Positions 14,089 through 57,321 of a stretch of 64,000 nt of DNA are shown piece by piece (within the stretch, counting starts at the first letter, position 1; each line of letters starts with the position of its first letter). Below the pieces are notes generated by a model that saw nothing but the letters and a program-made list of their open reading frames with translations, searched no databases and was not told where the DNA came from. The stretch is from Ilex aquifolium (Eukaryota > Streptophyta > Magnoliopsida > Aquifoliales > Aquifoliaceae). The translations under genes were made by a program, and so were the position numbers. The stretch lies in assembly GCA_951799425.1 (NCBI GenBank), contig OX637393.1, forward strand, positions 24,570,744 to 24,634,743. The letters are read 5' to 3'.

Positions 14089-16346
14089 TGTAACGCCCCA
14101 AAATTCCACTTGGACGGTATTACTATCTAAAACCATTCACATCAGGAGAGCAACTAATAATTTCCATAAGTAAAGAAAATTTCATTCATCATGCACAATA
14201 TCTATAACAACATCTAAAAGAATATGCCAAACCATGGTCTTTACATCCAAAAAGAATATGCCCCACTAAGACAAGTACATCAAAAATAACTATTATCTTG
14301 CAGCGGAATGAACACAATATCATTTGTACATTGTCCCAAAATCATCTCCTAGTCTAGGACATAAAAAGAACAACTCTATACATTCCACTCGGGATCCACG
14401 CTTCCATCCAATTGAGTTTCCCAAGCTATCTGCTCATCAACTCCGAGCTCCTCTAAACCATAATCTGAAAAATATATTGTTTGTAGGGGGTGATCACTAA
14501 GCTCTGTAGCAACATCCTCCCAAACTCGATCAAGGTTTTAAAACAAATAAAAGAAGACAAGTCTCTTTTAGAAAATAGCATATATATATATTTTGAGAAT
14601 AGAACCATGATAGTTGTAATGATCTCAAGTGTACGGAAATACAATAAATCAATGACAGAAATAAACTTACAAGAAATTAAAGCAATCCATAAATAAATCA
14701 TTCTATATTCTCATGTATGTTGGTTCATTCCCATTGTCATGTATGTTGGTTGCTTCTCAGGAATCTACACAACGATTCTATCTCGTTCACCCACCACAAA
14801 CCAATCATTCCCCGCAGGGCACATCACAAACTACTTTAGGAAGGGCGTATACCGTCTCCCACGGCATTGACGAATCCTTCCCAAGAAAGGTATACCATCC
14901 CTCAGCCTCGAACTTACGTGAACAATAGTGGTTGCTCTCACAAACAACAATCAACTACAAGTGCTAGGAAACCATCTCACCCCCACTGGGATAGACTAAC
15001 CTCTAACACTTTATGGCAGCTCTCGAAGGCAATTCAAGTCCATCACAACAAACCATACAAGAGATAAAACCAACATTTTTTCTCAACAACCACAATCTTA
15101 GTCAATCACAATTTTCATTAATAAATCAAGTATCACAATTATACAATTCTCAACATACTACAATAATAAAGGAATAAAAATATGCAAGAGATCATATCAA
15201 TAAAATCTTCACAATCTTGATATCAAAATTCTAGGGTTTTGCCAAAAATCATAATTTTTTTGGAACAAGAACAAGTATTAGATGAAAACATGATTTAATC
15301 AATAATAGACATTTAGAAATCAAGAATCCATGTATTTTTCATAACCCAAACATGTATTTAGCAAAACTAAGATTTTAGAAATTCAAGAACAATGTTTCTT
15401 GAACCCAAACATGTATTTTGTTCAAAACTGTGTTTCAATAACAAAGAAACCAAGAACTCATAACTATTTATCATATAACTATCAAGAATATTGAAAACAT
15501 ACATATATAATACCCTAAGCCTCAATGAAAGAATTTGAGAAGAATCCCCTACATTGCTGCTTAATTTTTGTGTGAAGAACTAGAAGATTTGATCCTTCCC
15601 ACTTGAATCAACCCTTGAATTTCTTGTTTTTCCCCTTCTTTCCTTCCTCTCTAAGCCTCTTTATGGTTTGCATTGATGAAAATGGGTTGCAAATGGGAGA
15701 GAAAACACCCAAAACAAGTCTGAGTCGTGAAGCCTTCAGTTTGGCGCGTCCGGACGCGTGTTTTGTGCTGTCCGGACGCATGTTTTTGCGTCCAAGTTTC
15801 TGCCATACGCGTCCAGACGCGTTTCTATTCCCGTCCGGACGCGGATGACAGTATACCCTCAACTTCCAGATCAATTTTGACCTATTTAGAAGCCGATTCA
15901 GACAATTTTCGTCAAATACACTTTTGTAGCCCTTGAAGTCTAGTTTCTACTGTCCAAAATTCAGATAAATTAGAGTTAGGAATAAAAAGTTATAGCTAAA
16001 ATACTAAGGTAGTGTCAAATTCCTTCCCATCCGAATTCTTTCTAAAATGTGTTTCAACTCCGAGATACTTCCTAACTTCTAATACACCCTATATTACCTC
16101 TCCCAAAGTTTCTCGATCTTCCGGATTCAATGGAAATCTTATTTTGACTTAAAAATGTTTAGAAACTTACCTAACAACCTTTTCCAAGTTTAAACGCATT
16201 CGAAACTTAAACTTCATAGTCACTTTGCCTCCCTAGTATTTATTCCTACTATTACAATCTATATGGTTCATGCTTAGGTCATGAGATATATAAGAATTAC
16301 TAAATAATTACATTACTATATTAATACAAACATGTGGGGGTTTACA
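14089..16346 (-). repeat. G2 3' LTR
   Basis: 2258 bp from TGTAACGCCCC to GGTTTACA (TGTAA...TTACA ends). The first 400 bp match 27295-27700. On the - strand a TATA-like CATAAAGAGG sits near 15658-15666, with a palindrome cluster upstream of it at 15745-15844. Confidence 0.88.
15745..15844 (-). promoter_or_regulatory. Palindrome cluster in G2 U3 (CGCGTCCGGACGCG type)
   Basis: Five copies or variants in 100 bp: CGCGTCCGGACGCG at 15745-15758 (perfect 14-bp palindrome), GTCCGGAC at 15770-15777, a half-decayed GCGTCCAAG at 15788, ACGCGTCCAGACGCGT at 15807-15822 (one mismatch), CGTCCGGACG at about 15832-15841. They lie upstream of the presumed TATA box in transcription direction. Confidence 0.8.
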
Positions 16347-16363
16347 ATCGACCCTCCTTAAAG
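16347..16363 (-). promoter_or_regulatory. G2 polypurine tract
   Basis: On the - strand CTTTAAGGAGGGTCGAT borders the 3' LTR. Confidence 0.75.
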
Positions 16364-16387
16364 AAAGTTTCGTTCTCGAAACTTACC

Positions 16388-17535
16388 TTAAGTAGAGAAC
16401 AAATGAGGGTATTTCTCTCGCATCTCCAGCTCTGGTTCCCAAGTAGCTTCCTCCACCCCATGATGTTGCCACAAGACTTTCACCAGTTGGATGACTTTAT
16501 TGCGAAACACCTTTTCCTTGGTATCCAGAATCTCCACCGGTTGTTCTTCATATGTTGCTCCATCTTGAATTTTAATTCCCTCCAAATCCACGACATGCTT
16601 TGTATCCGTCCTTAACATTGACACATGGAACACATCATGTACCCCTGACAACTGAGCTGGTAACCGAAGTTGATACGCCACTTTGCCCACCGCTTTGATC
16701 ACTTCAAATGGTCCGATGTACCTTGGAGCTAATTTTCCCTTCTTGCCAAATCTAAATACTCCCTTTCTAGGTGACACCTTGAGGAACACATAGTCCCCCT
16801 CTTGGAATTCCAAGGGTCTTCGTCTTCTATCCGCATAGCTTTTCTGTCTACTTTGTGCCGTGCGTAGTCTCTCTCGGATGAGTTGAATTTTCTCCGTAGT
16901 CTCCCGAACAATTTCTGGCCCAAACAAGCTACTTTCTTCAGCTTCCAACCAACCAGTCGGGGACCTACATGGTCTTCCATACAATGCCTCATAAGGTGTC
17001 ATGCCAATGCTAGATTGAAAACTATTGTTATATGCAAATTCCACCAACGGTAAATGATCACTCCAACTTCCCTTGAAGTCCAACACCCAAGCACGTAACA
17101 TGTCCTCCAAAATCTGTATCACTTTCTCGGATTGGCCATCCGTTTGAGGATGAAAAGCAGTGCTGAAGTGCAACTCTGTCCCCATAGCTCGTTGTAGACT
17201 TTGCCAAAATTGCGCCACAAAACGAGAATCACGATCCGACACAATAGAGAGTGGAACTCCATGCAATCGAACAATCTCGCGAATATAAAGCTTGCTCAAG
17301 GTCTCTAAAGTGTCAGTGGTCTTCATACTCAAGAAATGCGCGGACTTGGTGAATCTATCAACAATGACCCATACGACATTATGCCCGCGTGAAGTCCGTG
17401 GAAAGCCAGACACGAAATCCATGGTGATGTGATCCCACTTCCACTCTGGGATAGGTAAGGACTGTAGTAATCCTCCGGGTTTCTGATGCTCAATCTTCAC
17501 CTGCTGACACACCGCGCACTTTGCAATGTACTTAG
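16388..17535 (-). pseudogene. G2 integrase (core to C-terminus), cut off by element B
   Basis: The frame runs from AKCAVCQQVKIEHQKPGGLLQ (second half of the HHCC zinc finger) through WDHITMDFVSGFPRTSRGHN, VVWVIVDRFTKSAHF, SIVSDRDSRFVAQFW and FHPQTDGQSEKVIQ (catalytic D, D, E all present), then the GPY/F-type region KGKLAPRYIGPFEVIKAVG and the chromodomain-like end VLWQHHGVEEATWEPELEM. No stop in 380 codons. The N-terminal half continues at 24316 on the far side of B, where the frame ends KGMKQDVAK. Confidence 0.92.
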
Positions 17536-19399
17536 TGATGAGCACAAAATATTGTATATTTCAAGGCCTCATTACATGCATTTTAACTCAACTTTTGCAT
17601 CTCATTACATGCCGATTTTATGAATAATGTTGAATTCTTGATGTTGCATGTTTTTATAGCTTAAATCATGTATTTTAGGACCTTGCAACTATGTTGGATG
17701 TGTGGTGAGGGCATGGACACATTACATGAAGATTTGGAGGCTTAAAAGTGAAGAAATCAAGGAGGTATTGGTGTTTGGTAACAAAGGCGCCAGCAACCAC
17801 ACCACTGGGTTGAAGAACCTCGGTTTTCATCCATTTTGACCATGATCCACTTCGAATCGGAAAAATTTCAAAACATGAAAGTTGTATATCTGGATGTTTT
17901 CTGTATTGTGTCAAAATTTTAGCTCAATCAAACGGTTGGATCAAAATTTATGCCGATTCTACGAAAAGTGGTCCGGAGTAGAAAACAGTACCGGTACTAT
18001 AACGTTCCGGTACTGCGTACCGGTACTTCGAACTCCAGAAGGTTTAGAGTACTGGTACACAGTACCGGTACGCTCCCAGAACAACCCATAACTCTTCTCC
18101 ACTTGCTTGGGGGTCCCACCATTGATTCTCCCACACCTAGGCCGACATTTTATCCCTACAACCATGCCTCCTACACCCTACTTGAATACATTTTGAAGGC
18201 TTGGGCATTAAGGGAAGAGAGAGAGAAAGGGGGCTGCCATGTGGGTTGCAGGCTAGCTCTTCCTTAGCCTGTCAAGAGCCATAACTCAGCCTCCCATTGA
18301 TGGGAGGCCTGCACACAGCTAGGGGGGACCACCATGCACGAAAATTGAAGGCTAACTCTCCAATATATTCAGCATTTACACATTGTATTGGGGTGGCTAC
18401 CTAAGCTTAGATAGTTCCTAGGAAGAAGAAGATGAATAGTAGAATAGAAATTTATGTTTTTGCATTTTTCTTCCATCATTTCAGTTGTAGTTTATTGTAA
18501 GGATCTTGTAATCTTCATTCCTTTCCTTTAATGTCATTTATTTCAAGTATATTTCAAGTTTAGTCTTGCATTTTAGATTTCACCATTAATGCTTTCAAGT
18601 TCTTCATTTTTCAAGCTTTAAAATGGGTATTGAATATTTTTCTTCTTAGTTTAAGTTTTCTTGCATTAGTTCAAGTTCCATGCTTCATTTCTTCATTATG
18701 TCCATTTACATTATGCATGTCTTTCATTTTATCATGAGTAGCTAGATTTTAAGTTGGTTAATCCAAGGGAGAATTCCTCTTAAGTGTGCCACTTCAACTC
18801 ACTTTCATTCCTCCTCTCAGAGTATGATGGCTCGGTTTGACTGGGTTGGGGTGAGGACATGGTTGTGAGTTCTTGATACACCGTAGGCATCGTCACGGGG
18901 TATGCTTGAATCCTCACCTCCATTTTAGTCCCGAGCTTCCCACGAATCAATCGTACATCTAGGCTCTATTGGAGGAAGGCTTGAGTTGACTTGGTATTCC
19001 TATTGGAATGACCACTTTGGATTAGCCAACATTTGTTTTCATTGCATTTTCATTCAAAAACTTCACTCACAAAACACAAACACAAGATTTTACATTTTCC
19101 CTTTTGTTCACCAAAATCACTTTCACACACTCGAACTTTCCTTCCCTGAGGAGACGACCTTGGAATACTTTTCCAAGTAAAACACCGACACACAAAAGAC
19201 TCTTTGCGATTGGGGAGCACTTTTGTTCACACACCCGCATTTCATTCACATTTTGTTCATTCCATTTTCCACCAATCCATTGTTGCCTAATCTCTTGTAT
19301 CATTCCGAGGGAGAGTGACACTCCCTTCACACATACACCATATACACATTAAAGGGATGATATTAAGGGGTTAGGAACTACAACGTTTTTGCTCAATCA
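17536..19399 (+). repeat. Element B 5' LTR
   Basis: 1864 bp, near identical to 22506-24315 apart from a 61-bp segment in the palindrome cluster (missing from the 3' LTR) and a short replacement near 17600-17612. High identity implies a young insertion. Confidence 0.92.
17988..18071 (+). promoter_or_regulatory. Palindrome cluster in B 5' LTR (GTACCGGTAC)
   Basis: GTACCGGTAC at 17988-17997, 18017-18026 and 18062-18071; variants TTCCGGTAC near 18006 and GTACTGGTAC at 18049-18058. It lies about 450 bp from the LTR start, presumably in U3; no clear TATA box follows. Confidence 0.8.
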
Positions 19400-19402
19400 T
19401 TT

Positions 19403-22505: not shown

Positions 22506-24315
22506 TGATGAGCACAAAATATTGTATATTTCAAGGCCTCATTACATGCATTTTAACTCAACTTTTGCATCTAAGTACTTAGAGTTAGCCGATTTTATGA
22601 ATAATGTTGAATTCTTGATGTTGCATGTTTTTATAGCTTAAATCATGTATTTTAGGACCTTGCAACTATGTTGGATGTGTGGTGAGGGCATGGACACATT
22701 ACATGAAGATTTGGAGGCTTAAAAGTGAAGAAATCAAGGAGGTATTGGTGTTTGGTAACAAAGGCGCCAGCAGCCACACCACTAGGTTGAAGAGCCTCGG
22801 TTTTCCTCCATTTTTACCATGATCCACTTAGAATCTGAAAAAGTTAAAAACATGAAAGTTGTAGATCTGGATGTTTTCTGTATTTTGTCAAAATTTTAGC
22901 TCAATCCAATGGTTGGATCAAAAGTTATGCCGATTCTAAGAAAAGTGGTCCGGAGCAGAAAACAGTACCGGTACACAGTACCGGTACGCTCCCAGAACAA
23001 CCCAGAACTCTTCTCCACTTGCTTGGGGGTCCCACCATTGATTCTCCCACACCTAGGCCGAAATTTTATCCCTACAACCATGCCTCCTACACCCTACTTG
23101 AATACATTTTGAAGGCTTGGGCATTAAGGGAAGAGAGAGAGAAAGGGGGCTGCCATGTGGGTTGCAGGCTAGCTCTTCCTTAGCCTGTCAAGAGCCATAA
23201 CTCAGCCTCCCATTGATGGGAGGCCTGCACACAGCTAGGGGGGACCACCATGCACGAAAATTGAAGGCTAACTCTCCAATATATTCAGCATTTACACATT
23301 GTATTGGGGTGGCTACCTAAGCTTAGATAGTTCCTAGGAAGAAGAAGATGAATAGTAGAATAGAAATTTATGTTTTTGCATTTTTCTTCCATCATTTCAG
23401 TTGTAGTTTATTGTAAGGATCTTGTAATCTTCATTCCTTTCCTTTAATGTCATTTATTTCAAGTATATTTCAAGTTTAGTCTTGCATTTTAGATTTCACC
23501 ATTAATGCTTTCAAGTTCTTCATTTTTCAAGCTTTAAAATGGGTATTGAATATTTTTCTTCTTAGTTTAAGTTTTCTTGCATTAGTTCAAGTTCCATGCT
23601 TCATTTCTTCATTATGTCCATTTACATTATGCATGTCTTTCATTTTATCATGAGTAGCTAGATTTTAAGTTGGTTAATCCAAGGGAGAATTCCTCTTAGG
23701 TGTGCCACTTCAACTCACTTTCATTCCTCCTCTCAGAGTATGATGACTCGGTTTGACTGGGTTGGGGTGAGGACATGGTTGTGAGTTCTTGATACACCGT
23801 AGGCATCGTCACGGGGTATGCTTGAATCCTCACCTCCATTTTAGTCCCGAGCGTCCCACGAATCAATCGTACATCTAGGCTCTATTGGAGGAAGGCTTGA
23901 GTTGACTTGGTATTCCTATTGGAATGACCACTTTGGATTAGCCAACATTTGTTTTCATTGCATTTTCATTCAAAAACTTCACTCACAAAACACAAACACA
24001 AGATTTTACATTTTCCCTTTTGTTCACCAAAATCACTTTCACACACTCGAACTTTCCTTCCCTGAGGAGACGACCTTGGAATACTTTTCCAAGTAAAACA
24101 CCGACACACAAAAGACTCTTTGCGATTGGGGAGCACTTTTGTTCACACACCCGCATTTCATTCACATTTTGTTCATTCCATTTTCCACCAATCCGTTGTT
24201 GCCTAATCTCTTGTATCATTCCGAGAGAGAGTGACACTCCCTTCACACATACACCATATACACATTAAAGGGATGATATTAAGGGGTTAGGAACTACAAC
24301 GTTTTTGCTCAATCA
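22506..24315 (+). repeat. Element B 3' LTR
   Basis: 1810 bp, same ends as the 5' LTR. The palindrome cluster (about 22965-22988) is reduced to two adjacent GTACCGGTAC copies. Confidence 0.92.
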
Positions 24316-30604: not shown

Positions 30605-31434
30605 TTAAGAAGTAGAAGGTCCTCCTCCAAAATGTTCTCGCAGTAGCCTCAAGATCTCTGCTTGACTTTGTTCATAATCATTCATGCACTTGTTGATTTC
30701 TGTAATACTGGTACCAAGCTGGATGATAGTGGTTTCCAATCCTAACAAAATCTGTCTGTCAGTTCTGTCATCCACTGTTATGTATGGTTGATCCTCTTGT
30801 GGCTGCTGCTGTTCTTGCGGAATGAATTCTTTAGGTACTTGGAATAGTTCATCTTGTAGTGGAGGTGGTACTTCGGGTTGCTCTTCAGCCTGTCCTCCAT
30901 GACTCTTTTTCAATGAAGTTTTATCCAATGCTCCAAAATGGTCCACTGTTTTCCATATAGATCAATAACCATGCCCTTGTTCCTGCATAACTGAGAAACT
31001 AACATAACATATGGAAGTGAGGGTTTCTTTCTATCCACAGCAAGCAACATTTGGCCCATGATTAAGTTTGGAAGATCAATTGTGTGTCCCATCCCAAAAG
31101 CATATACAAAGTAAGCTTGCTCAGTATAAATTTGTTTTTTCTGAGCTCGGGGTAACAAACTGTTCACTGTTATCAAATTCAGAATTCAATATTAGTCTGT
31201 CAGATCCCCTTGCTTTATATATTTATTTCGTCTACCCCAAACAAACTTTGGATTACCCATCAATTCTCTCCCTACGTCATTCAAATCAGGTAATTCAGTA
31301 TAAGGATATTGAGGGTTTTCTGGTCTTTGCATGGGTTGAAAAAATTCGGCTACAGTAGCCGGTGTAACTTGAAAAACAATACTCCGTACGAACACACGCA
31401 ATTGTCTTTCTCCAATAATCTCAGCATTACTATA
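30605..31434 (-). pseudogene. Athila-type third ORF, C-terminal part (left of G1)
   Basis: Continuation of the ORF at 41429-41731. The frame reads GERQLRVFVRSIVFQVTPAT, then YTELPDLNDVGRELMGNPK and, after a frame break near 31190, YFVYAFGMGHTIDLPNLIMG and SLPYVMLVSQLCRNKGMVID, then a Gln/Pro-rich tail with heptad-like LLGLETTIIQLGTSITEIN, ending at 30605. This order resembles the plant 'putative transposon protein' ORF found with Athila elements. Function unknown in the family. Confidence 0.6.
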
Positions 31435-33893
31435 TGTAAAACCCGGGTAAATTTGAACTTTTTTCTGAAAAAAGGGCAAAACGGTAATTTACCACTATAA
31501 TGCGTATTTAAAACACTCATGTTTCTAGAGCTCGGATGACACAATGAACTTCGCCATTGGATTCGTATCGCGAAATCCAGTTACCCTGTCAGATTTCATC
31601 AAATTCTGAGATAGTCGAAATTTACACGTATTTCGAGGCGTCTGGGTGGAGGGTGACCTCACAAAGGTCCCCACAAATAAATTTTATAGAATTTCCTTAT
31701 AATTGAATTAAAGTTCAAATAAAATTAATTTGAACTTAAACCGAGATGTAATGAAACATTTCGGGACGAAAAACGGACCCAAAAGTAGGAAATATGCGGT
31801 GCGACGTGGACCGCACAATTAAAATTATAAATAGTGACTTAAATCAGATTTTTTGGAGAAAATATCTCTATTTGTTCAGCCTCACAGGTTTGGGAGAGAA
31901 GAGAGAGAAGAGAAGAAGAAAAAAATCAATCTTCAAGCTTTCTCCTTCGATTCCCGGAGTTCCGTCGGTCGGAATTCGTCGAGCCAAGAGTTAAAGTTCA
32001 TCTCCTCGACGAGGGCTACGCGTACGTACCAAAAAGAAATGATTTCACCGAAGATCCAAAGAAAGGATTTTGGAGAAATCAAAGTTTTGGGCTTGGGAAG
32101 TGTTCTTGAAGCTTCCTTCGGGTGATTTACGCACCAAGAGGTAGGGTTCCTCCTACTTTGACTTTATTCCTATCCTTTGGTGTTGAAATTGTGAGATGTT
32201 TTGGGTTGGAATTGTGGCCTGTTTAGGGGCTGTTTTGTGGCATATTTTGTGGCTGTTTTGTGGCCTGTTTTGGGGCTGTTTTGTGGCCTGTTTTGGGGCT
32301 GCTTTGTGACCTGTTTTGGGGCTGTTTTTTGGGCATGTTATATGTTTACATTATGCTTTGAGAATTAAGTGTGTCATTGCTTGATTATGTAACGACATGC
32401 TTGGTTGTTGTTGTTAGATAAAATATCGATATGTGTTTATAAGGTGTCTTTGTGAATGGAATGTGCTATGACATGCTTGAGGATGTTGTAGTTGTGTATT
32501 AATACATGTTGTTAATGTATTAGCATCATGATAAATTGTGGTAATTATGTGCATTACACATATATTGCCTTGACCCATGTTGATATGTGATTTAAGTTGT
32601 CCATATGACATTCATTACAAATGAGACATCACATTGATATGCGATGGTACATTACATTGCATTTGCACGGAGGCATCACATTCATGGGCTTAGGCATGAG
32701 TGTAGGTGTGTGTGTGTATAGACATGGTTTATTCAAACATCATACTTGGTGGTTGAAGGGTGGGCTCGGGAAAGTGGGATTGAAGATCCTATTGAGTTGC
32801 ATGGTTGCATGCATGGAAAAACTTGTGTCGGGTATAGCAAGTAGGGCTAGACTCTCCCTCGGGTGCAAAACCCGGTTATTGGTTTATTCACTTCCGTCGG
32901 TGCAAGTCCAAAAAAATGAATTAGGCATACGGAGCCGGCGGTGTAATTCCAAAATCCGTTGCCTAATAAGACACAAGATTTTGTTTATAAAACACTCATT
33001 CAATGGGTAACATCCACAGTGATTTGGTTTTATAAATACATGACTTTTATTTCAAACGATCATTGGATGGATTTTTCGTCAATTGACGGTTTCATTGCAC
33101 AAGTGCATTGCATTGTGTTGTGGGAGTCGGTGAACACTCGGGTTAAGATGCATGTGTAAGTCTCATCTCATTGCATGCATGACATGGTAAAATTCCAATA
33201 TAGAGTTGCATATTCTTGTTTGGAATGTTGTTATGGATGAATGTTGTATGTAAACATTGCATATGCATCTAGGGTGGGGAGTAGCCTCTGTAGGAGATAC
33301 TCTATTGAGCGTTGCTCATCCTATACGGGAAAATATTTCAGGTGCGGGTTTTACGCCGATGGACAACACTCACTCGGGCACTTAAGAAGGAAGAAAAGTC
33401 GAGATGTGGCTTTATTTTGAGTCCTTGTAAAATTTTTGTAAAAATTATGATTTTTGAGCATGTAAATATTTGGAAATAGTCGTAATGGGACTCATATGAA
33501 CTGTTTTGAATGTAAATTTCCTGATGTATGAGTTTGATATGAGTTTGGGTAGGTTTTCTCAAAACTCCATATTTATGGACTATTTTTAATCTAACCTTGC
33601 ATGTAATTATATGAGTATGGATAAATGGACTCGGTGTGGTCAATGTTTACTCATAAATGGACCTGGTGCTGCCAGTGTTTTATATTGGGCCTCGGATGGG
33701 TCATGTAAATGTATATTGTACAGGTTGGGTTTTGGGTAGAGCTCCCCGTACAAAGGAGACTTTGCCCGATTTTTTTTCAATTATGGACCCCGATAAATGG
33801 GGTATAACGGCGCGATATCGAGTTACTCGGTATCCACGGGTATTCCGCGGGTTGATGGGTAATCAACGGACTCCCGAATTTTGGGGCGTCACA
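31435..33893 (+). repeat. G1 5' LTR
   Basis: 2459 bp. A TATA box (ATTATAAATAG) lies near 31824-31833, preceded by an imperfect inverted repeat TGCGGT...ACCGCA (31795-31815). A CTGTTTTGGGG minisatellite spans about 32215-32335. Confidence 0.93.
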
Positions 33894-38939: not shown

Positions 38940-38952
38940 AAGGGGGGAAGAA
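38940..38952 (+). promoter_or_regulatory. G1 polypurine tract
   Basis: AAGGGGGGAAGAA directly before the 3' LTR. Confidence 0.88.
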
Positions 38953-41423
38953 TGTAAAACCCTGGTAAATTTGAACTTTTTTCTGAAAAAAGGGCAAAAC
39001 GGTAATTTGCCACTATAATGCGTATTTAAAATACTCATCTTTCTAGAGCTCGGATGACACAACGGACTTCGCCATTGGATTCATATCGCGAAATCCAGTT
39101 ACTTTGTCAGATTTCATCAAATTCTGAGATAGTCAGAATTTACACGTATTTCGAGGCGTCTGAGTGGCGGGTGACCTCACAAAGGTCCCCACAAATAAAT
39201 TTTATAGAATTTCTTTATAATTGAATTAAAGTTTAAATAAAATTAATTTGAACTTAAACCGAGATGTAATGAAACGTTTCGGGACGAAAAACAGACCCGA
39301 AAGTAGGAAATATGCGGTGCGACGTGGACCGCACAATTAAAATTATAAATAGTGACTTAAATCAGATTTTTTGGAGAAAATATATCCATTTGTTCAGTCT
39401 CACACGTTTGGGAGAGAAGAGAGAGAATAGAAGAAGAAAAAAATCAATCTTAAAGTTTTCTCCTTCGATTCCCAGAGTTCCGTCGGTCGGAATTCGTTGA
39501 GCCAAGAGTTAAAGTTCATCTCCTCGACGAGGGCTACGTGTACGCACCAAAAATAATTGATTTCACCGAAGATCCAAAGAAAGGATTTTGGAGAGATCAA
39601 AATTTTGGGCTTGGGAAGTGTTCTTGAAGCTTCCTTCGAGTGCTTTACGCACCAAGAGGTAGGATTCCTCCTACTTTGGTTTTATCCCTATCCTTTGGTG
39701 TTGGAATTGTGGCCTGTTTAGGGGCTGCTTTGTTGCCTGTTTAGGGGCTGTTTTGTGGCCTGTTTTGGGGCTGCTATGTGGCCAGTTTAGGGGCTGCATT
39801 GTGGCCTGTTTTGGGGGCTGCTATGTGGCCTGTTGAGGGGTTGTTTTGTGGCTTGTTTTGGGGCTATTTTGTGGGCATGTTATATGTTTACATTATGCCT
39901 TGAGAATTAAGTGTTTCATTGCTTGATTATGTAACGACATGCTTGGTTGTTATTATTAGATAAAATATCGATATGTGTTTATAATGTGTCTTTGTGAATG
40001 GAATGTGTTATGACATGCTTGAGGATGTTATAGTTGTGTATTAATACATGTTGTTAATGTATTAGCATCATGATAAATTGTGGTAATTATGTGCATTACA
40101 CATATATTTCCTTGACCCATGTTGATATGTGGTTTAAGTTGTCCATATGACATTCATTACATATGAGACATGACATTGATATGCGATGATACATTACATT
40201 TGTACGGAGGCATCACATTCATGGGCTTAGGCATGAGTGTGTGTATGTGGGCATGGTTTATTCAAACATCATACTTGGTGGTTGAAGGGTGGGCTCGGGA
40301 AAGTGGGATTGAAGATCCTACTGAGTCGCACGGTTGCATGCATGGAAAAACTTGTGTCGGGTATAGCAAGTAGGGCTAGACTCTCCCTCGGGTGCAAAAC
40401 CCGGTTATTGATTTATTCACTTCCGTCGGTGCAAGTCCAAAAAAATGAATTAGGCATACGGAGCCGGCGGTGTAATTCCAAAATCCGTTGCCCAATAAGA
40501 CACAAGATATTGTTTATAAAACACTCATTCAATGGGTAACATCCACAGTGATTTGGTTTTATAAATACATGACTTTTATTTCAAACGATCATTGGATGGA
40601 TTTTTCGTCAATGGATGGTTTCATTGCACAAGTCCATTGCATTGTGTTGTGGGAGTCGGTGAGCATTCGGGTTAAGATGCATGAGTAAGTCTCGTCTCAT
40701 TCCATGCATGACATGGTAAAATTTCAATATAGAGTTGCATATTCTTGTTTGGAATGTTGTTATGGATGAATGTTGTATGTAAACATTGCATATGCATCTA
40801 GGGTGGGGAGTAGCCTCTGTAGGAGATACTCTATTGAGCATTGCTCACCCTATAAGGGAAAACATTTCAGGTGTGGGTTTTACGCCAACGAACGACACTC
40901 ACTCGGGCACTTAAGGAGGAAGAAAAGTCGAGATGTGGCTTTATTTTGAGTCCTTGTAAAATTATTGTAAAAATTATGATTTTTGAGCATGTAAATATTT
41001 GGAAATAGTTGTAATGAGACTCATATGAACTGTTTTGAATGTAAATTTCCTGATGTATGAGTTTGATATGAGTTTGGGTAGGTTTTCTCAAACCTCCATA
41101 TTTATGGACTATTTTTAATCTAACCTTGCATGTAATTATATGAGTATGGATAAATGGACCCGGTGTGGTCAATGTTTACTCATAAATGGACCCGGTGCGG
41201 TCATTGTTTTATATTGGGCCTTGGATGGGTCATGTGAATGTATATTGCACAGGTTGGGTTTTGGGTAGAGCTCCCCATACAAAGGAGACTCTGCCCAATT
41301 TTTTTTCAACTATGGACCCCGATAAATGGGGCATAACGACGCGATATCGAGTTACTCGGTATCCACGGGTATTCCGCGGGTTGATGGGTAATCAACGAAC
41401 CCCCGGATTTTGGGGGCGTCACA
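38953..41423 (+). repeat. G1 3' LTR
   Basis: 2471 bp from TGTAAAACCC to GGGCGTCACA; TATA near 39343. Its minisatellite (about 39710-39875) differs in length and unit order from that of the 5' LTR. Confidence 0.93.
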
Positions 41424-41428: not shown

Positions 41429-41731
41429 AAACTCACGAACTAAACAATCATAAGCAGGAGTAAGAAATCAAACATAATGCCACCATCCTCTTTCAGCAAG
41501 AATTTTTCTTACTCCTATGTTCTCAAAATCCTCATAAATAACTGGCAGTTCAGAAATTATAGTTTTAGTCAGAAAATTAGCATCATACCAGGCCTGTTGT
41601 TCAAAATTTTCAAATATCACCTCATTGAAGATATTCCTTGGTCCATGTTGTTGTGGAGGTGCTTGAGGTGGTTGAGGTTGATCTCTTTGTGCACGGCTTG
41701 AAGATCCTTTCGTTCGTCGTCTTGAATCCAT
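41429..41731 (-). pseudogene. Athila-type third ORF, N-terminal part (right of G1)
   Basis: Start MDSRRRTKGSSSRAQRDQPQ, a basic Pro/Gln-rich leader, then IFENFEQQAWYDANFLTKTI and IYEDFENIGVRKILAERGWW. A TGA follows HYV, and the frame continues FLTPAYDCLVREFYS up to the G1 insertion, to resume at 31434. This resembles the ORF1 type annotated with Arabidopsis Athila elements. A TATA box and palindromes lie 220-260 bp upstream. Confidence 0.6.
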
Positions 41732-41947
41732 GTTTTTCTTGATTTTTCTTCAAATACTCCGTTTCAACTGATTTCAATCAGTAGATACCTTCAAAATGTG
41801 ATGGGTAAGTCAATAATCGGAAAAGATTTGAAAAAAAACAGTTGAATATTGCAGATTCGGGAGCTATTCTTTGGAGAAAACTCGGCTATTTCGAATTTTT
41901 GCTTGCGAGGGAGATGAAATAATCGTTTTTTTGCATGGAGATGGCGT

Positions 41948-41994
41948 TTATAGGGGCACTGCCGTCCGGACGCTAGGCCCACCGTCTGGACGGT
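41948..41994 (-). promoter_or_regulatory. Promoter-like TATA box with palindromes upstream of the Athila-type ORF
   Basis: On the - strand CCCCTATAAACG (TATA at 41948-41953) follows two palindromes: CGTCCGGACG (41963-41972) and ACCGTCTGGACGGT (41981-41994, one mismatch). The latter and its 3' neighbour TGCCTTGCTGG are shared with 51839-51864 in the 5' LTR of element A. Confidence 0.6.
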
Positions 41995-45288: not shown

Positions 45289-45289
45289 T

Positions 45290-46117: not shown

Positions 46118-48481
46118 TGTAACGCCCCAAAACACACCCTGGACGGCATTACATACTAAAACCATTTACATCATGAGAGCACTAATATCATCCATAAATA
46201 AATTAAACTTCATTCATCATCCATAAAATATTTACATCATTATCCAAAAGAATATGCCCAACCATGGCATTTACATCTCAAAAATTAATTAAAGTAGCAC
46301 AGCGGAATAGCAAAAGAAACTAGACCTTACAGTGTCCAAAAGAATAACCTAGTCTAGTACAAAAGAAGCTACATCTCTACATATCCACCTCGGGATCTAG
46401 GTTCCCCTCGAGTGGAGCCTCCTAATGCCCTGACTCGTCGATGCCGAGATCCTCCTCTAGCACCAAATCTGAAAAATGTAATTTGTAGGGGATGAGCACG
46501 AAGCTCTGTAGCAAAATCTTCCCAACTCAAACAAGGTTTATAAAAATATAAAACGGGTCGGTCACATTTCGAAAATAATATATATCAATTTTTTTTTGAA
46601 GGAAAAACAGGACAGTTTAAAGAGATCTCAAGTTTAAGCCATAACAACAATCAAGTAAAAGAATAAATTAAATTGAACAACAATACACCGTGTCCAAAGT
46701 TAGGCCAATTCGGAAGAGCGTCTTCCGATGCATTGTCCCATACCAATGCACCGGCCAAGACGTTCCAACTCATCATCCCATGTATATTGGTTCATCCCCG
46801 TACCATGTATGTTGATTGCTTCTCATGAATCTACCCAACGATTATACCTAGTCCACCAATTACAATCAAAATCACAAACACTTTAGGAAAATGCGTCTAC
46901 CATCCCTCTGGCAGTGACGAGTCCCTTCCCAGGAAAAGTATACCATCCCTTGTTCGAACTCCAGTGAACGATAGTGGTCGTATTACCACATGACAACCCA
47001 CTACAAGTGTTAGGAAACCATCACCCCCACTGGGATAGACTAACCTCTAACACTCTACAGCATCTCTCGAAGGCAATCCAAGTCCCTCACAACAACCATA
47101 CAATTGAGGAAACCAAAATATTCTCAATTCATCAACATTTCAAGGAATTACCAAATTCCACAATTTATAATATAATGTTTCATAATATGATGGAAGAAAA
47201 TGAGCAAGAGATCATCATAAGTAACATTTTGGTGTACAATATCAAACACTAAAGTTTTGAAAGCAATACTAAGGAAAAATAGAGGGAAAAGTCTATTTCT
47301 CTTTAAAACCAAGGTTTGAAGATGAAAAAGAGAAATTTAATAGTTACCCAACCATCACAATGTTCAAAACATGGCATTTATTTCAAGAGGAACAAGAATC
47401 ATGTATTTCTTATCAGGTATATAAGGATGAGAGTGAAAAACATATATATATACATAAACCCTAGCCTCAATGTAAGAGATTAGGAAGAAATCCCCTACCT
47501 CAACCAAGTATCTCTAGCAACCCAAGCTTTAAAGACTCCCTTTTCCCCTTTTTCTTGCTCCCTTGCTACTTTCTCTTTTGGTTCTAAGAGGTTTGAGTGA
47601 GGGTGAAGTGAAATTATAGAAGAGGGAATGGATGGAGAAGTGAAATCTTGAAAACTAGGGCTTTGATCTTGTAAATCTCTCCCAATTTTTGTGTTTTTCT
47701 CTCCCTCTTTTGCTCTCTAAGGGTGCCTAGGGTTTGGATGGGTGAAATGAGGCTAAAAAAGTTGACATTAAGTATTTATAGTGGAGCTAGGACCGACTGT
47801 TCGCGAGTTGAAAATTTCGGATTTTTACAGCGACTACCGGTAGCTGATTTTGACTACCGGTAGCTCGGGTACATTGGCACTCGACTACCTGTTGACTACC
47901 GGTAGCTCGGGTACACTGGACACTCGACTACCTGTTGACTACCGGTAGCTCGGGCACACTGGACCATTGACTACCGGTAGTCACTGCCCAGATTTTCTGC
48001 TTCAACTTCAAGTGCAGTTTTGACCCATTTAGAGGTCGAATTGGAAAATTTTCATGAGAGACACTTTTGTAGTCCTAGATGTCTAATATCTGCTTTCCAA
48101 ATTTCAGATCAATTGGAGTTAGTAATAAAAAGTTATGATCGAAATAGTAGACAGTGTCCAAAATCCTTTATACCCAAATTTTCTCTAAAATGTGTTTTAA
48201 CTCCAAAATACTTCCTAACTTCTAATACACCCCATATCACCTCTCCCAAGGTTTTTCGACCTTCCGGACTCAATGGAAACCTTATTTTGACCTAAATCCA
48301 TTTAGAAACTTACTTAATCCCTCTTCTCAAGCTTACACACCTTCAAAACTTCAACTTCCAAATTAATTTGCATCTCTAGTTTTTTTTTTATTCCTACCAT
48401 CACTACACATATCCGCATTTTTACAACTATTATTTAATATATATCTATATACATATATAAACGAAAATGCGGGGTGTTACA
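46118..48481 (-). repeat. G3 3' LTR
   Basis: 2364 bp from TGTAACGCCCC to GGTGTTACA. Alignable with the G2 LTR outside the palindrome cluster. TATA box CACTATAAATACT on the - strand at 47771-47782. Confidence 0.88.
47834..47982 (-). promoter_or_regulatory. Palindrome cluster in G3 U3 (CTACCGGTAG)
   Basis: CTACCGGTAG at 47834, 47854, 47896, 47939 and 47971 (extended to the 14-bp palindrome GACTACCGGTAGTC at 47969-47982), plus half sites CTACCTG. Three of them sit in imperfect tandem units of about 43 bp. The nearest lies 54 bp upstream of the TATA box. Confidence 0.85.
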
Positions 48482-51297: not shown

Positions 51298-51298
<1 letters not shown>

Positions 51299-51364: not shown

Positions 51365-51365
<1 letters not shown>

Positions 51366-51750
51366 CATCAGCATTTGCAGAAGTTAACAAATATTATACA
51401 TATTTTCACCTCTCACTGGAGGATAGAAGTAACTATTTAGACCCCATTACTATAGACAAGCAAGGAGTGCGGGTAGTTATCATTACAACAATAACTGAAA
51501 TACAGACTCAGACACTTCTTTCACAAGGAACAACTGAAACACACCCACCTTTTATTATCAGTTAAGACAAAAAAGTGTCGGCAGTTCAATTATCCGAATA
51601 GAAAGAGACAACATAAATTTAGAAATACAGAGTTTCAGTTGGATTGTATGACGGACCGGATTTGTGTGTGACTTCCTCTTTTTCTCTTTCTTTTTCTTTC
51701 TTTGAAATTCTCTCTGGAGCTCTCTCTCTACCCGACCAACTTCAAAACAA

Positions 51751-51852
51751 GGCCATGCATGGCCTTTATATAGAAAAAGGAGGAAGCAGGAGGTGTCAGG
51801 AGGGCAACCACCTTAGTGCACCGTCCGGACGGCCCTCCACCGTCTGGACGGT
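51751..51852 (-). promoter_or_regulatory. Element A promoter: TATA box, start-site palindrome and U3 palindromes
   Basis: On the - strand CCGTCCGGACGG (51821-51832) and ACCGTCTGGACGGT (51839-51852, one mismatch) lie 50-80 bp upstream of TATATAAA (51765-51772). Just after the TATA box is the perfect 14-bp palindrome GGCCATGCATGGCC (51751-51764). Confidence 0.7.
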
Positions 51853-52116
51853 CATGCCTTGCTGGATCATTATCTTCTTGAGTGCTGACTCTTCCTTTGT
51901 GTGAATTACACTTTGGTCATTTGCTCTTTTGAGCTTTGACGCATTGTTCCTTGTATTTTCCGGCAATTCGACATTAAACCCTGAAATTTCAAACATAACA
52001 TGATTAAAACCCTAATTTACACGCAAACCTTAATTGATAGCTTTTAATTGATTTATCTTACAAAATTATTTATTTAACTATATGAATTTACATACTAACT
52101 AGGGTTAATCAGGAAG

Positions 52117-52930
52117 AAATAGGGGGAAATGCCACGGAGGAGATTAGGGCTTGCCCTCTGGGGTCTGCTCTTATTGGTCAGTTTGAAACGTGATTTTTAT
52201 CCCCGCGCCCACCGCCCTGTGGTCGCCCTCCCATCGATCGAGAGGTCATTCGCTAATTTGAAGTTTCTTGTTGACCAAAATTTCTTTTATTCGGAGCCCA
52301 TAAATAGGGCATGACTTTCCTATTGCTAGGGTAAGCCTTTAGACATTCTTTTAAGAGAGAAATCTATCTTAAACACTAGAAAAATTCCACCATAACCTTA
52401 GATCCCTAAACCCAAGGCTCCCTTCTAAAGATTCTAAACAACCTCACAACTTGGTGTTTAAGATCTTGAATGGTTTGAATCAAACCCATTGGTGTGTACA
52501 TTCCAAGGATAGTTGGTGCACCTAAGACATCGAAGGAGTCCCTTTGGCGGAGAGATCTATTGGAGAAAAAGAGGATCTAACCATGGTATTGGTTGAAGTA
52601 TAAGATTCGAGTACTTATAGATTGACTTTGTGATAGTGAATTAAGTTTTGGTGAACTGGTAGAGGTTCCCCGTGATTTTTTCGAAGGAGAGTTTTCGCGT
52701 CAACAAATTGCTTGTGTTCTTTATTATTTTTACATATACACTTACAATTGTTAGCACACACGTGCACTATGTGTTTGATGTATTTAATACTTGACATATA
52801 AAATTACACATAGTTGTGTATTGGGTTTGGATTTTGGGATTTGGATTTTCTCATGTGAGATTGAGTGCTTGTGTGTTTATTGATAAAATTAACAATATCA
52901 ATCTATATAGGTTCATCAGGTCATGGTGGT
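52117..52930 (+). repeat. Probable copia-type LTR fragment
   Basis: TATA-like CCCATAAATAGGG near 52300, then a leader ending GTTCCCCGTGA...GTTTTCGCGTCAACAAATTG, TTGTGTTCTTTATTATTT, a setting typical of the R-U5 part of copia LTRs of the Sire/Tork kind. No ends, primer site or second LTR found; limits approximate. Confidence 0.4.
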
Positions 52931-53221
52931 TAAAAAAGGGTTCTCACATTTAATTGCTAAAATTTTGTGAGGAGATAATTGAAGTAAAATTAGGCTTTAA
53001 TTGATATTTGATTAAGCTTAAAATCAAAAAAAGATATTTGGCCCCTCCATCTAGGTAGTGTCGTGCGCTCCAAGTGTGTAAACTGAGGGAGATCCACTTC
53101 GTTTCTCCCACTCCTAGAACAACAGTAAGTTTGTTGGTTTACAATAAGGATTTATGGTTCATAGAAAATTTACGTTTCACCATGGTCCTATGGATCAGAA
53201 CTTACACATCCTAGGACTAGT
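52931..53221. other. Unassigned spacer
   Basis: AT-rich sequence between the copia-type LTR fragment and element F. No motif recognised. Confidence 0.35.
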
Positions 53222-53457
53222 TGATGAGCACATAATATTTCATATTTAAAGGCCACATTACATGCATTTTAACTCAACTTTGTATTTAATTACTTAGAGT
53301 TAGTCGAATTTGTGAATAATGTGGAAATTTTGATGTTGCAGGTAATCATAGGGTAATTGATGGCTTTCAGAACCCTACAACTAAGTATGGATGAGTGGTG
53401 AAGAGATGGACACATTACATGAGGATTTGGAGGCTTAAAAGTGAAAAAAATCACGGA

Positions 53458-53524
53458 GGTATCGGTACATCGTATCATAGGTACCGATATTCACACCATT
53501 TGGTATTGGTACCTCGGTATTCCT
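53458..53524 (+). promoter_or_regulatory. First palindrome subcluster in F LTR (GGTACCGATA type)
   Basis: GGTATCGGTAC, GGTACCGATA and TTGGTACCTCGGTAT variants within 67 bp. At the same place B has only GGTATTGGTGTTTGG-like non-palindromic sequence. Confidence 0.6.
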
Positions 53525-53671
53525 AATTTTTGACCATGATCTACTTCGAATATGAAAAATTTACGAACATAAAAGTTGTAGATATGGATGTCCTCTATAT
53601 TATGTTAAAATTTCAGCTCAATTGGACATATGGGATCAAAAGTTATGACAAATTTACGAAAGTTGGTCATG

Positions 53672-53808
53672 AGTTACCAGTAGCTGACCCCTAACTACTT
53701 ACCGGTAGCATCCCCCTTACGACCTACCGGTAGAACCTTAAAACCTACCAGTAAAAGACCCTACTGGAAGTTATCTACCGGTAGAAGTCTCACGACCTAC
53801 AGGTAGAA
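53672..53808 (+). promoter_or_regulatory. Second palindrome subcluster in F LTR (CTACCGGTAG)
   Basis: Seven copies or variants: near 53672, 53698, 53723, 53744, 53760, 53775 (TCTACCGGTAGA, perfect 12 bp) and 53797. It occupies the site of the GTACCGGTAC cluster of B. Confidence 0.8.
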
Positions 53809-55065
53809 CATGCCCACAAAGCCCAGACACTTCCCCACATGACTCCACCAACCACGGGGGCCACCTCTTATCCTCTAAACCATACCCTGACATGTTTGAC
53901 ACCACATAATGCTCTCCTAACCCCTAAAGTCAGATTTGAATTAAGAGAGAGGGGTGGTTGGGAAAGCATGGGAGGAGTATGCTTGGACTGAAATTGCTTG
54001 TTCAAGTGGACAACCTTTCTCCAATCATTCCAATTTAGTTCACACATGCTAAGGGAGAGAGGATGGATGAAATTGAAGGGGGGCTTACACCATTATTTCG
54101 ATTTTACATACTTTTGAGAGACAAGCTCCTAGGTTGAAGATGAAGTTTTAGAGAGAGAAAGTTGGGTTTTTAAATTTCCTTCACCATTTTCATTGTAGTA
54201 AGCTTTATTTTACTTGTAATCTTTCCCTCTTTCACTCTAAACTCTTTTATTTAAGTTGTAATCAACCTTAGTTAAGTGTTCTTGTATTTTCATTTCTACA
54301 ATTGGGTATTTTATCTTCAAGCTTTGTATTTAGGGTATGAATGACTTTGCTCTTGTAGTTTAAACCTTTTCTTGCATCAATATAATTCTCATGTTTCATT
54401 TCACTACCATGTTTCTTTACATTATGTTTGTTCTTGCCTTTACTATGAGTAGCTAGACTTTTAGTTGGCTAATTCAAGGAGAATTTTCTCTTGGGTATGC
54501 GAAATCGACCCTCTTTCATTCTTCCTCATAATGTAAAGTGTTTGGTTTGGCAATGTTGAGTGCGAACATGGTCGTGAGCTCTTGATATACCGTAGACTTG
54601 TCATGGGGTATATTTTTGTCCAACATAACCACATTAGTTCCTCACTTCCTACAAATCAATCAAACATCGAGACACCATTGGTTGAATGAATTGAGTCGAT
54701 TTGGCATTCCCATTAGAATGACCTCTATGGATTAGCCAAACTTGCTTTCTTGCATTTTTCTCAAAACACAACTCACCAAACACAATTCTCAAAATTTTCC
54801 AATTTTCATTTCTTTACAAATCACCCTTCAATAGCATTTGACATTTCTTTCTCTAAGGAGACGACCTTGGAATACCCATTCCAAGTAAAACACGACATTG
54901 CAAGTCTCTCTACGCTTGGGGAGCACTTTTGCACACACACACACACGATTTTTTCCATTTCTTGCATTTGAACCCGAGGGAGAGTGACACTCACCAACTC
55001 ATATAAGCCATATACACACAATCCGGGCTCATGTTTGGAGACTAGAAAAAATGATCAAGCATTTT

Positions 55066-55083
55066 TGGCGTCGTTGTCAGGGA
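55066..55083 (+). promoter_or_regulatory. Element F primer-binding site (tRNA-Asp, decayed)
   Basis: TGGCGTCGTTGTCAGGGA differs from the exact complement at three positions, all C-to-T or G-to-A. Confidence 0.8.
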
Positions 55084-55204
55084 AGACTAAGTGTCAAGTT
55101 TCAAAGGTGATTTGGGACGGCATAGGTAACTTTCGTGATTTTCATCACGGGCCAAGGTATGTCTTCTCAATTGTAAATAGTTTGTTGTAGTTTTTGTTTT
55201 ATGT

Positions 55205-55549
55205 AATGTTTCTTAATTTTTATGAAAATGTATTAAATGCCCCAAATTTTTAAAATGTTCGCGAGATTTGGGATGAGTATGAGCACATCACTAGTGAGTG
55301 TCCATTAAATTATATGGTTTAAGACTTTGCATGTGAAGGATCAATTTCAATATTTGCTCCCAAAATTTTTTACCCTGACCATTATGTTGCAACGAGTTAT
55401 CCGAGTTATAGTTGGGAGAACGAACCTTATAATTTTTCATCTGATCTCACACCACCAAATGAATTTTGCCACTATCAAACATATGAGGACTCAACCGAAC
55501 AAGAATTAGAAAATAATCTTGGAGAGTTTATTCAATACCAAATGGAAGT
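55205..55549 (+). pseudogene. Zinc-knuckle ORF of element F (truncated)
   Basis: Reads NFYENVLNAPNF*NVREIWDE and YEHITSECPLNYMV*DFACE, then YVATSYPSYSWENEPYNFSS, DLTPPNEFCHYQTYEDSTEQ, ELENNLGEFIQYQMEV, parallel to B but with only one knuckle, whose two first Cys are lost. Cut at 55549 by E. Confidence 0.75.
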
Positions 55550-57321
55550 TGATTAGTAGTTAAAAGTAGCATCGTAATATGCCTTTTTAAGACTAATTAT
55601 ACTTTGATGGAGTTTAAATGATGACATTTCAGGATATAAATTGTACAAAGGTCCAAAGGTAATGAATATCAAACTTTCATGCAACACCAGCATGCCCTGG
55701 AACAAAATTTGAGAAGCTTGGAACAAAGCAATAACGTTCGAACGCCAATTCATGTTCTAACGTTCCCTTGAATTATTTGAAGATCAGATTGCTAAAATAC
55801 TGAGACATGGCATGTTGCGGCCAAGAAGGAAAGCACTGAGGTACTTGAGTACCACGTTCGAACGTTAATTCACGTTCGAACGTTCTCCTGAATTATTGAA
55901 GACCAGGCTGCTGAGTGCAAAGTCAAGTTGTACATGAAGTGTGGAAATTGCTCTCACAGAAGAACACAGGCCACTTGAGTGGGAAGTTTAGACCCCTTCT
56001 GGGGTTCGAACGCCCATCAAGCAAAGACATGAGACAACGTTCGAACGCTAGACAACGTTCGAACGTTCTGCAGAGTGGATGGCTTTCAGAGGACTTTGAA
56101 GGCTTAACACTATTCTTTCATAATCCCTTGTCCCTTCCTCCTTGCCTATAAATACTCCCATTGTGGGAGCTTCATGGAGATAGAGACTAGACCAATATTT
56201 CCTAGCTACTTGTAGAATTAGACTTAGACTAGATTTACATTTACTTGTATAGAGGAAGATAGATCATCTTTTGGTTGCGGTGGAAAACCCTCCAAAAGTG
56301 ACTAGTTTTCTTCTACTTTCATTATTAGTTTCATTTTCTTTCATTGCTTGAGCTTCCTTCTTCCCTTACAGGAGTGAAACTCATCCACTTTTCTAGAGCT
56401 TTACCAAAGCCGTGAAGGGTGGAACGTGATTCACTCATTCTTCGTTGAAGATCGACTCCTTGTGTAGTGTGTTTTATCTTGTAACTCCTCTACTTAGAGG
56501 GATGAGCATCACTCACTTTTCTAGCTTTACCAAAGCCATGAAGAGTGAGTAGTTTCTCATTCACTTTTTAGTGAGAGGTGATGGCCATGTATAAATCATC
56601 CGGAAGTTATATTTGTGCATTTCGTTTATGCTTAAATGCTTTATATTTCACTTGTTTATTGAATGATTGAATGTATCTAACAAAGCTAAGGTCCTTTTTA
56701 TAACCGTGAGTACTTTCTATGACGTAGATGACTCTTGACATAGAAAGACTCATTGGTTCAAGGCAAGTACCCCAGCTAGATCTTCATAACTACATTGCAA
56801 TCTTTACCATTATTGTGCTTCATTTAAAAGAATAGAATATTAATGTCATGGTTGGATGGCTTGTAGAAACACTTGCTTGTTTGTAGACGGGTTAAGTCTC
56901 GGCATAGACAATTCTTGTAAACTTCTAAAAAGACATCGGAACCATGCTATTAATTCTCACAATCCATCTTTATCTTTCGATTAACTTCATGTTGACACGG
57001 TGGTTAATTGAGTTCCCAAGCACAAGTATAATAAACCGGATGGTTAACTACATGTCTAAATCCTCGAGCTAAAGGGTGCCTGTTACATTTGAGAACTTCT
57101 TATATTTTGTCTAGAAAATCTCATTAGAAAGAATCTTATATTCTGTCCAGAAAAATCTCTAAACATCACAACTTTAAATCTTAAGGATTCCAGTCATTGT
57201 GGTCTCTATCACTGCTTACTTCTAAACACCAATATTAGTTCCCTATAGATTCAACTCCGGACTTAACCGGATTATTACTACAACTTGACCGTCTGCACTT
57301 GGGTGTACACATTTCGGATCA
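55550..57321 (+). repeat. Element E 5' LTR (limits inferred)
   Basis: About 1.77 kb from TGATTAGTAG, where F homology stops, to CGGATCA, 11 bases before the primer site. It holds palindromes (55735-56067) and a TATA box GCCTATAAATACTCCC (56145-56160). Confidence 0.7.
55735..56067 (+). promoter_or_regulatory. Palindrome cluster in E U3 (ACGTTCGAACGT)
   Basis: CGTTCGAACG at 55735, ACGTTCGAACGT at 55854 and 55872, GTTCGAAC at about 56004, ACGTTCGAACG at about 56037, AACGTTCGAACGTT at 56054-56067 (perfect 14 bp), plus decayed copies near 55752. The last one lies 80 bp upstream of the TATA box at 56147-56154. Confidence 0.85.

Follow-up and report, generated by a model that had tools for sequence, protein, structure and literature searches.

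Retrotransposons and palindrome clusters in the window

The 64,000-nucleotide stretch of Ilex aquifolium contig OX637393.1 that was analysed, hereafter the window, is filled by nested long terminal repeat (LTR) retrotransposons, labelled G2, G3, B, F, A, E and D. The subject of this work is the clusters of short palindromes in their LTRs. G2 and G3, both on the minus strand, are Tekay-like chromoviruses akin to each other, and D, with LTRs at 31434-33893 and 38952-41423, is another chromovirus. B and F are mutually related Athila-like LTRs, apparently non-autonomous. A lies on the minus and E on the plus strand; both are Athila-like and have open reading frames (ORFs) of gag and pol type. The clades Tekay and Athila are what we take these elements to belong to, judging from LTR ends, primer sites, ORF wording and chromodomain-like sequence.

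The original prediction, a reading of the letters alone, had named palindromes of 10-14 bp, centred on CCGG or TCGA, in the LTRs of G2, B, A, G3, F and E, families which it considered unrelated. All of the named palindromes are present in these LTRs (Table 1), and in every named cluster the box is a dyad-symmetric palindrome. One G3 palindrome extends to 16 bp, and the centring describes the named clusters but not the genome at large, where arrays of GCGCCTAGGCGC and TGATCGATCA exist. The CGG-CCG core that marks the palindromic boxes of Sireviruses is overlapped within the CCGG cores; it is absent from E (core TTCGAA) and from TGATCGATCA, and GCGC-N4-GCGC does not hold it as such. The families are unrelated only in part, the LTRs of G2 and G3 being homologous, like those of B and F. 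Types are also common to lineages, including ones that lack a PF20167 ORF: the Tekay-like G2 has CGTCCGGACG in common with the Athila-like A, as the Tekay-like G3 has CTACCGGTAG with the Athila-like F.

As a null, 200 dinucleotide shuffles in 500-bp blocks were used, with two-letter-only decamers excluded. CG-centred palindromes of at least 10 bp numbered 26 in the window, against a shuffle mean of 6.55 (standard deviation 2.6, maximum 14), and pairs of them at most 400 bp apart numbered 26 against 0.4 (maximum 4). TA-centred palindromes were mildly raised (27 versus 16.7, shuffle maximum 26), and AT-centred (20 versus 22.9) and GC-centred ones (12 versus 10.8) showed no excess over the shuffles. 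Because shuffles are blind to tandem duplication, recurring words were counted as well. A decamer occurs at least three times within 400 bp in 10 clusters, and in three of these (B, G3 and E) a palindromic one does so; in B the palindrome is the sole decamer recurring this often, and in G3 flanking words recur too. Among the decamers recurring at least twice, 4 of 396 are palindromic, and these are the four named cores. A CpG transition explains five of the nine one-mismatch copies within the named arrays. The D LTRs of the window contain isolated CG-centred palindromes and no cluster. The two B LTRs (17987-18071 and 22965-22987) are distinguished by the loss of the stretch between two palindromes, as if the sites had recombined.

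Matching arrays ahead of PF20167 reading frames

In the case of A, an array that the original prediction had not listed lies between pol and the next ORF, before an internal TATA box (Table 1). As the pair of the A LTR is repeated internally, E-type palindromes were predicted at the equivalent site of E, just past the window. In the next 10 kb (L034), positions 321-716 indeed hold five exact CGTTCGAACG cores, or 11 copies when one mismatch is allowed, and CTATAAA follows about 12 bp downstream (by eye). The ORF after this array has two pieces that match the Pfam family PF20167 at 8.2e-7 and 3.5e-10, under the family cut-off. Inside the same array, L034:434-457 is a 24-bp perfect palindrome, CATCCAACGTTCGAACGTTGGATG.

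To extend this to other elements, PF20167 was searched for in the genome, giving 150 scored matches of 6661 candidates, and 20 loci of 6.5 kb each were selected by eye so as to differ in ORF length and score. A GC-rich palindrome cluster was found in the upstream zone of 15 of the 20 loci and in the ORF zone of none (Markov null means 0.1 and 0.3, respectively); by the same definition, 2/20 loci have a cluster in the 2300-3300 zone and 5/20 in the LTR zone. The arrays were then typed with seven motif classes, which were set after inspection, the zones of A and E being cut separately. A typed array stands upstream of the ORF in A, in E and in 16 of the 20 loci. Altogether, 18 of these 22 elements have an internal type, 11 have an LTR type and 10 have both.

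In all ten elements typed at both places, the LTR type is the internal type: GCGC-N4-GCGC in L074, L076, L083, L085 and L086, CGTCCGGACG in L080, L081, L090 and A, and CGTTCGAACG in E. By permutation, 10 matches were attained in 13 of 20000 cases. In an earlier count, the internal core recurred exactly in the element's own downstream zone in 6 of 22 cases, and of 462 pairings with the zones of other elements 56 showed it. Three elements, L077, L088 and L093, have downstream arrays of a different type; these fall within or border on stretches of D-like homology and were assigned to other, nested elements. With one mismatch allowed, at least eight palindromes over both places were found in L080 and E and not in A; such a number per element, along with CpG islands, is characteristic of the Sirevirus boxes. 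TATATATA follows the internal arrays of L081, L082 and L090 (by eye). In L079, L087 and L092, TGATCGATCA arrays stand upstream of one PF20167 clade, and none of the three is typed in its LTR zone. Searches for PF20167 homologues in a protein database gave 3 and 2 matches.

Position relative to TATA boxes

According to the original prediction, the clusters of G3, A and E precede a TATA box, and a strict TATA motif does follow these arrays at the distances of Table 1; the array of E extends up to about 410 bp upstream of its TATA box. With the two B LTRs counted separately, a TATA box within 80 bp, a limit chosen after the data were seen, follows four of eight blocks (G3, A LTR, A internal and E), and by chance this would be so at 2.9% of window positions on the plus strand and at 3.9% on the minus strand. 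At 51749-51766, an 18-bp perfect palindrome, AAGGCCATGCATGGCCTT, starts directly after the TATA box of the A LTR, near the expected transcript start.

Persistence in other copies

The clusters of G3 and G2 recur in other copies of the same families. For G3, scoring covered 40 of 3944 candidates, and 30 loci, the window copy included, were excised. Arrays of CTACCGGTAG were found in 30/30 loci, and each of the 29 others keeps 3-5 exact palindromes, with a TATA box 52-72 bp beyond the last of them. For G2, 40 of 3888 candidates were scored and 20 short stretches taken, and the type is kept in 20/20, with 1-3 exact CGTCCGGACG each.

Substitution is lower inside the G3 palindromes. Differences from the window copy at CpG amount to 3/284 in palindromes versus 59/970 elsewhere (Fisher 1.5e-4), and those outside CpG to 8/1135 versus 603/30208 (9e-4); these p-values are nominal because the copies share ancestry, and gaps in the repeat array may conceal some changes.

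Type differences between related LTRs

In the homologous LTR pairs, alignment (MAFFT, 60-column steps) breaks down at the start of the array. Identity of G2 and G3 is 56-88% before the arrays and 32-54% over them; past them it is 37-59% to about column 1380 and then mostly 60-93%. The corresponding values for B and F are 60-91% as far as the array, 39-60% across it, 33-58% from there to about column 1140 and 62-86% thereafter. Thus, the array-bearing promoter block differs between LTRs that are otherwise homologous.

A genome search for two GTACCGGTAC five bases apart gave 13 places, against 0 for the reversed pattern, all of them within arrays of 2-14 copies. They comprise four G3-like LTRs (L030, L037, L038, L042), five D-like LTRs (L031, L032, L033, L039, L041), a B-like LTR (L040), a B-like internal region (L035) and two unassigned places (L036, L043). 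In the G3-like L030 and L042, GTACCGGTAC sits at the array site, and homology to G3 stops 8 and 12 bases from the array, at most 5 bases from the breakpoint of G2 and G3. In the five D-like LTRs the GTACCGGTAC arrays lie near the LTR 3' end; the D LTRs of the window have none.

Some further observations concern these LTRs. A 74-bp stretch is 82% alike between L030:1616-1688 (Tekay-like LTR) and window positions 53576-53649 (LTR of the Athila-like F). In each LTR it lies upstream of the array, at most about 100 bp away, and the similarity may mark exchange between lineages. Arrays of CCTTATAAGG, which we take to be a CArG-like word, lie inside tandem repeats, with six copies at L030:319-630, in the 3' half of the G3-like LTR, and nine at L071:2638-3053. 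Arrays of a further palindrome type, CTTCCGGAAG, are found at L043:875-1163 (B-like LTR) and L093:6031-6383 (beside D-like LTR homology).

Other features of the window

Among the window ORFs, Pfam matches were obtained to RVP_2, integrase and RVT_1. The D ORFs show the domain order reverse transcriptase, RNase H, integrase (by eye), and all own-strand ORFs of at least 150 aa between the D LTRs are of gag-pol type. The insertion of D interrupts the ORF region of A, whose two halves are likely one element, judging from collinearity with E; the stretch between gag and pol is seemingly missing in part in A as compared with E. The 3' LTR of E lies beyond the window, from L034:3847 onward.

Table 1. 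Palindrome arrays, TATA boxes, LTRs and reading frames, with positions in the window
Feature	Position	Strand	Remarks
G2 LTR array of CGTCCGGACG	15745..15846	-	two perfect (15745-15758, 15832-15841), two one-mismatch
B LTR1 array of GTACCGGTAC	17987..18071	+	three exact, two one-mismatch
B LTR2 array of GTACCGGTAC	22965..22987	+	two exact
G3 LTR array of CTACCGGTAG	47834..47983	-	five exact, partly within 43-bp tandem unit
A LTR array	51821..51851 (palindrome 51821-51832)	-	CCGTCCGGACGG plus CCGTCTGGACGG
A internal array	41962..41993	-	pair as in A LTR; CCAGCAAGGCA upstream of both
F LTR array of CTACCGGTAG	53674..53806	+	two exact (53724, 53774) plus degenerate copies
E LTR array of CGTTCGAACG	55735..56067	+	five exact (at least 10 bp) plus degenerate copies
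G3 TATA box	47774..47781	-	strict motif, 53 bp past array
A LTR TATA box	51765..51772	-	strict motif, 49 bp past array
A internal TATA box	41947..41953	-	strict motif, 9 bp past internal array
E LTR TATA box	56146..56154	+	strict motif, 79 bp past array
First ORF piece downstream of putative A internal promoter	41471..41731	-	87 aa; no Pfam match
Later ORF pieces beyond D insertion	30901..31433	-	PF20167 at 0.22, next at 5.6e-10; both under family cut-off
G2 3' LTR	14089..16348	-	boundaries read from sequence
G3 LTR	46118..48480	-	homologous to G2 LTR
E 5' LTR	55550..57331	+	3' end placed by primer site

Two other dyads were seen. Left of G2, at 13705-13989, there is a pair of long palindromes rich in A and T, of 16 and 24 bp, with common CTCAAATTTGAG-like arms, and in the D LTR, at 31760-31845, a single imperfect GCGGT...ACCGC dyad stands directly before a TATA box (read from the letters). 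An Rfam scan returned 0 matches at gathering scores, B had no match in plasmid records, and three protein queries found no relative in viral contigs. The viral-contig scan gave 26 stretches with GTACCGGTAC pairs, and 2 and 0 stretches with primer-site patterns; a prokaryote scan gave one contig, with an integrase 36% alike.

Comparison with known systems

In the excerpted text of PMC2829016 (Bousios 2010), 13 Sireviruses carry palindromic, element-specific boxes, termed repeated-motif (RM) boxes, clustered upstream of TATA and ENV. According to the same excerpt, the boxes are absent from the classic Ty1/copia elements compared, and its authors were unable to define a shared site for one factor. 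The palindromic-box promoter design is thus already known in Ty1/copia Sireviruses, and for these elements the statement of the original prediction that no such arrays had been described is superseded. What is new here are the Ty3/gypsy hosts, the type swaps between related LTRs, the types that run across lineages and the matching within elements. Ty3/gypsy counterparts were not recognisable in a literature search by title and start of abstract, which does not establish their absence from print.

As far as the excerpts go, the Sirevirus RM boxes and the present arrays have in common many-copy dyad boxes, an element-specific sequence and extra copies upstream of a post-pol ORF or ENV. The position of the RM boxes just upstream of TATA is shared by G3, A and E but not by G2, B, F and the D-like LTRs. 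The two differ in several respects. The hosts of the RM boxes are Ty1/copia elements, whereas here they are Ty3/gypsy (Tekay-like, Athila-like and another chromovirus). Copies are mostly fewer here, the cores are partly others (TTCGAA, GCGC-N4-GCGC, TGATCGATCA), types are swapped between related LTRs and some are common to lineages. The small-RNA hotspots of maize Sireviruses, as excerpts of PMC5311732 and PMC10760457 describe them, are likewise a palindrome-rich, fast-evolving cis-region with strong predicted structure; unlike there, substitution is lower inside the palindromes in the G3 copies. In Arabidopsis, the excerpt of PMC4977677 describes an internal promoter ahead of the ENV ORF of Athila6A. 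The likeness lies in an Athila-type element with a promoter before this ORF, and palindromes are not mentioned in that excerpt.

Interpretation of the arrays

We consider it likely, at a probability of about 0.6, that the arrays are cis-regulatory modules, i.e. clusters of dyad-symmetric candidate sites for dimeric host DNA-binding proteins that would serve both promoters. Element lineages would draw on a limited set of site types, and those Athila-like elements that can be typed would put one type at the LTR and at the putative internal promoter before the PF20167 ORF. With the same type at both promoters, one factor could switch both transcripts; as related LTRs differ in the array-bearing U3 block, they would respond to different factors. 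We infer promoter activity at the internal site and binding of the arrays by a protein of host origin, whose effect is more likely activation than repression. Because CGTCCGGACG occurs in both G2 and A, and CTACCGGTAG in both G3 and F, a host factor is likelier than an element-encoded one. The dimeric host factors of the original prediction are thereby favoured, indirectly, by the family-typed arrays, by the TATA boxes that follow them in G3, A and E, by the lower substitution in G3 and by the matching of LTR and internal types.

With regard to the binding protein, an LBD factor is a candidate binder, and a literature search for LOB/LBD binding of CCGG sites found nothing. A heat-shock element was rejected as a common theme, since the E core TTCGAA differs from the GAAnnTTC unit. 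Insertion-target palindromes, in the excerpt of PMC6911290, are about target sites and not LTR arrays. The name CCGTCC-box occurs in an excerpt of PMC3485330.

Several results weigh against host-factor modules. A strict TATA motif was not found within 400 bp downstream of the arrays of G2, where the original prediction had tentatively seen a TATA box, or of F and both B LTRs, where it had rightly reported none that was clear. Such a motif was also found in none of the 20 other G2 copies, and the five D-like LTRs carry the array near their 3' end, not upstream of TATA. In just two of the 20 PF20167 loci, L077 (at 116 bp) and L080 (at 12 bp), is the internal array followed by a strict TATA motif no more than 150 bp away. 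The lower G3 substitution is relative to the window copy only, and the copies are 98-99% alike upstream. An alignment-free count over the 30 G3 arrays yielded 133 exact copies, 28 with one mismatch and 54 with two; CAACCGGTAG accounts for 15/28 of the former mismatch class, and CAACAGGTAG, which recurs within the repeat unit, 51/54 of the latter.

The matching of types has limits as well. Eight of the 22 elements were typed internally only, one in the LTR only and three at neither place, so that 12 of 22 are uninformative. The classes followed inspection, and the 10 matches represent about four clades by protein similarity (A was placed with the L081 clade by ORF wording), so that the effective sample is small. 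When exact palindromes were masked, internal and LTR modules still aligned above 200 mononucleotide shuffles in 6/6 elements tested, degenerate copies being left unmasked. Copying between the two places is therefore a possible cause of the match.

Among the alternatives, an action at the RNA level seems unlikely, although less so than the others. Copies would pair with each other, and the resulting hairpins would be a source of small RNAs and silencing, an idea put forward for the palindromes of maize Sireviruses. For each of 11 array segments, with G2 taken on both strands, the fold is more stable than the shuffle mean (z -2.6 to -7.4), and excerpts of PMC10760457 and PMC5311732 report an excess of small RNAs mapped to maize Sirevirus palindrome regions. 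However, folding is not independent evidence because any single-palindrome array folds well; hairpins could form without loopless palindromic copies and without any agreement between the LTR and the internal promoter, and a pure cost would not preserve the arrays that are kept in the G3 copies. Hairpin formation may be a side effect. Dimerisation of genomic RNA through self-complementary sites, the second proposal of the original prediction, is weakened and has very little probability left. Each palindrome copy is self-complementary, but the retroviral dimer-initiation palindrome lies in the 5' leader, whereas the arrays of G3, A and E are upstream of TATA and therefore presumably missing from the RNA 5' end. 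Moreover, copies pair within a single RNA, as the folding indicates, and the internal-promoter arrays have no place in such a scheme. The D-like arrays near the LTR 3' end would fall in the RNA leader, could fit and leave it some room. The arrays might also be a neutral by-product, each LTR having amplified a chance palindrome by short tandem duplication, and the 43-bp tandem repeat in the G3 array and the different site numbers in the two B LTRs speak for this. We regard it as improbable, in view of B, where no decamer other than the palindrome recurs three times, of cores common to several unrelated lineages, and of the 10/10 LTR/internal matches and the lower G3 substitution.

Foamy viruses have an internal promoter and the protein Tas, so that two promoters of one element are under a common regulator. 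The likeness to the present case consists of two promoters and a putative common regulator, PF20167 being only a candidate for this role here. By such an element-encoded explanation, the PF20167 product would act in the manner of a retroviral transactivator, activating the LTR as well as the internal promoter of its own ORF. We hold this to be quite unlikely. The matched internal array does stand ahead of the PF20167 ORF, and type tracks PF20167 clade among typed loci (GCGC-N4-GCGC, TGATCGATCA, CGTCCGGACG and CGTTCGAACG), but vertical inheritance alone would also tie type to clade, and one type is common to two PF20167 clades that are 36% alike (L080, L081). Tekay-like G2 and G3 have types in common with A and F, and D-like LTRs elsewhere bear arrays, the own-strand ORFs of at least 150 aa in the D of the window being of gag-pol type alone. 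An Athila-like two-promoter circuit, in which the PF20167 protein would be produced from the internal promoter and would recognise a clade-specific palindrome at both promoters and activate or de-silence them, and from which Tekay-like and other elements would have acquired their palindromes, is to our mind similarly doubtful. If it were true, Tekay-like and other elements would exploit, or escape into, Athila-like circuits, and array types would be specificities shared and traded among the retrotransposons of one genome.

In conclusion, the palindromic-box promoter design is extended from Ty1/copia Sireviruses to three kinds of Ty3/gypsy elements. The type varies at one site between related LTRs, yet it matches at two places within an element. 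A loose motif observation thus becomes testable, in the form of a small number of site types whose regulators are predicted to be shared, and this offers a concrete route to ask whether host factors or the elements themselves control retrotransposon transcription in large plant genomes.

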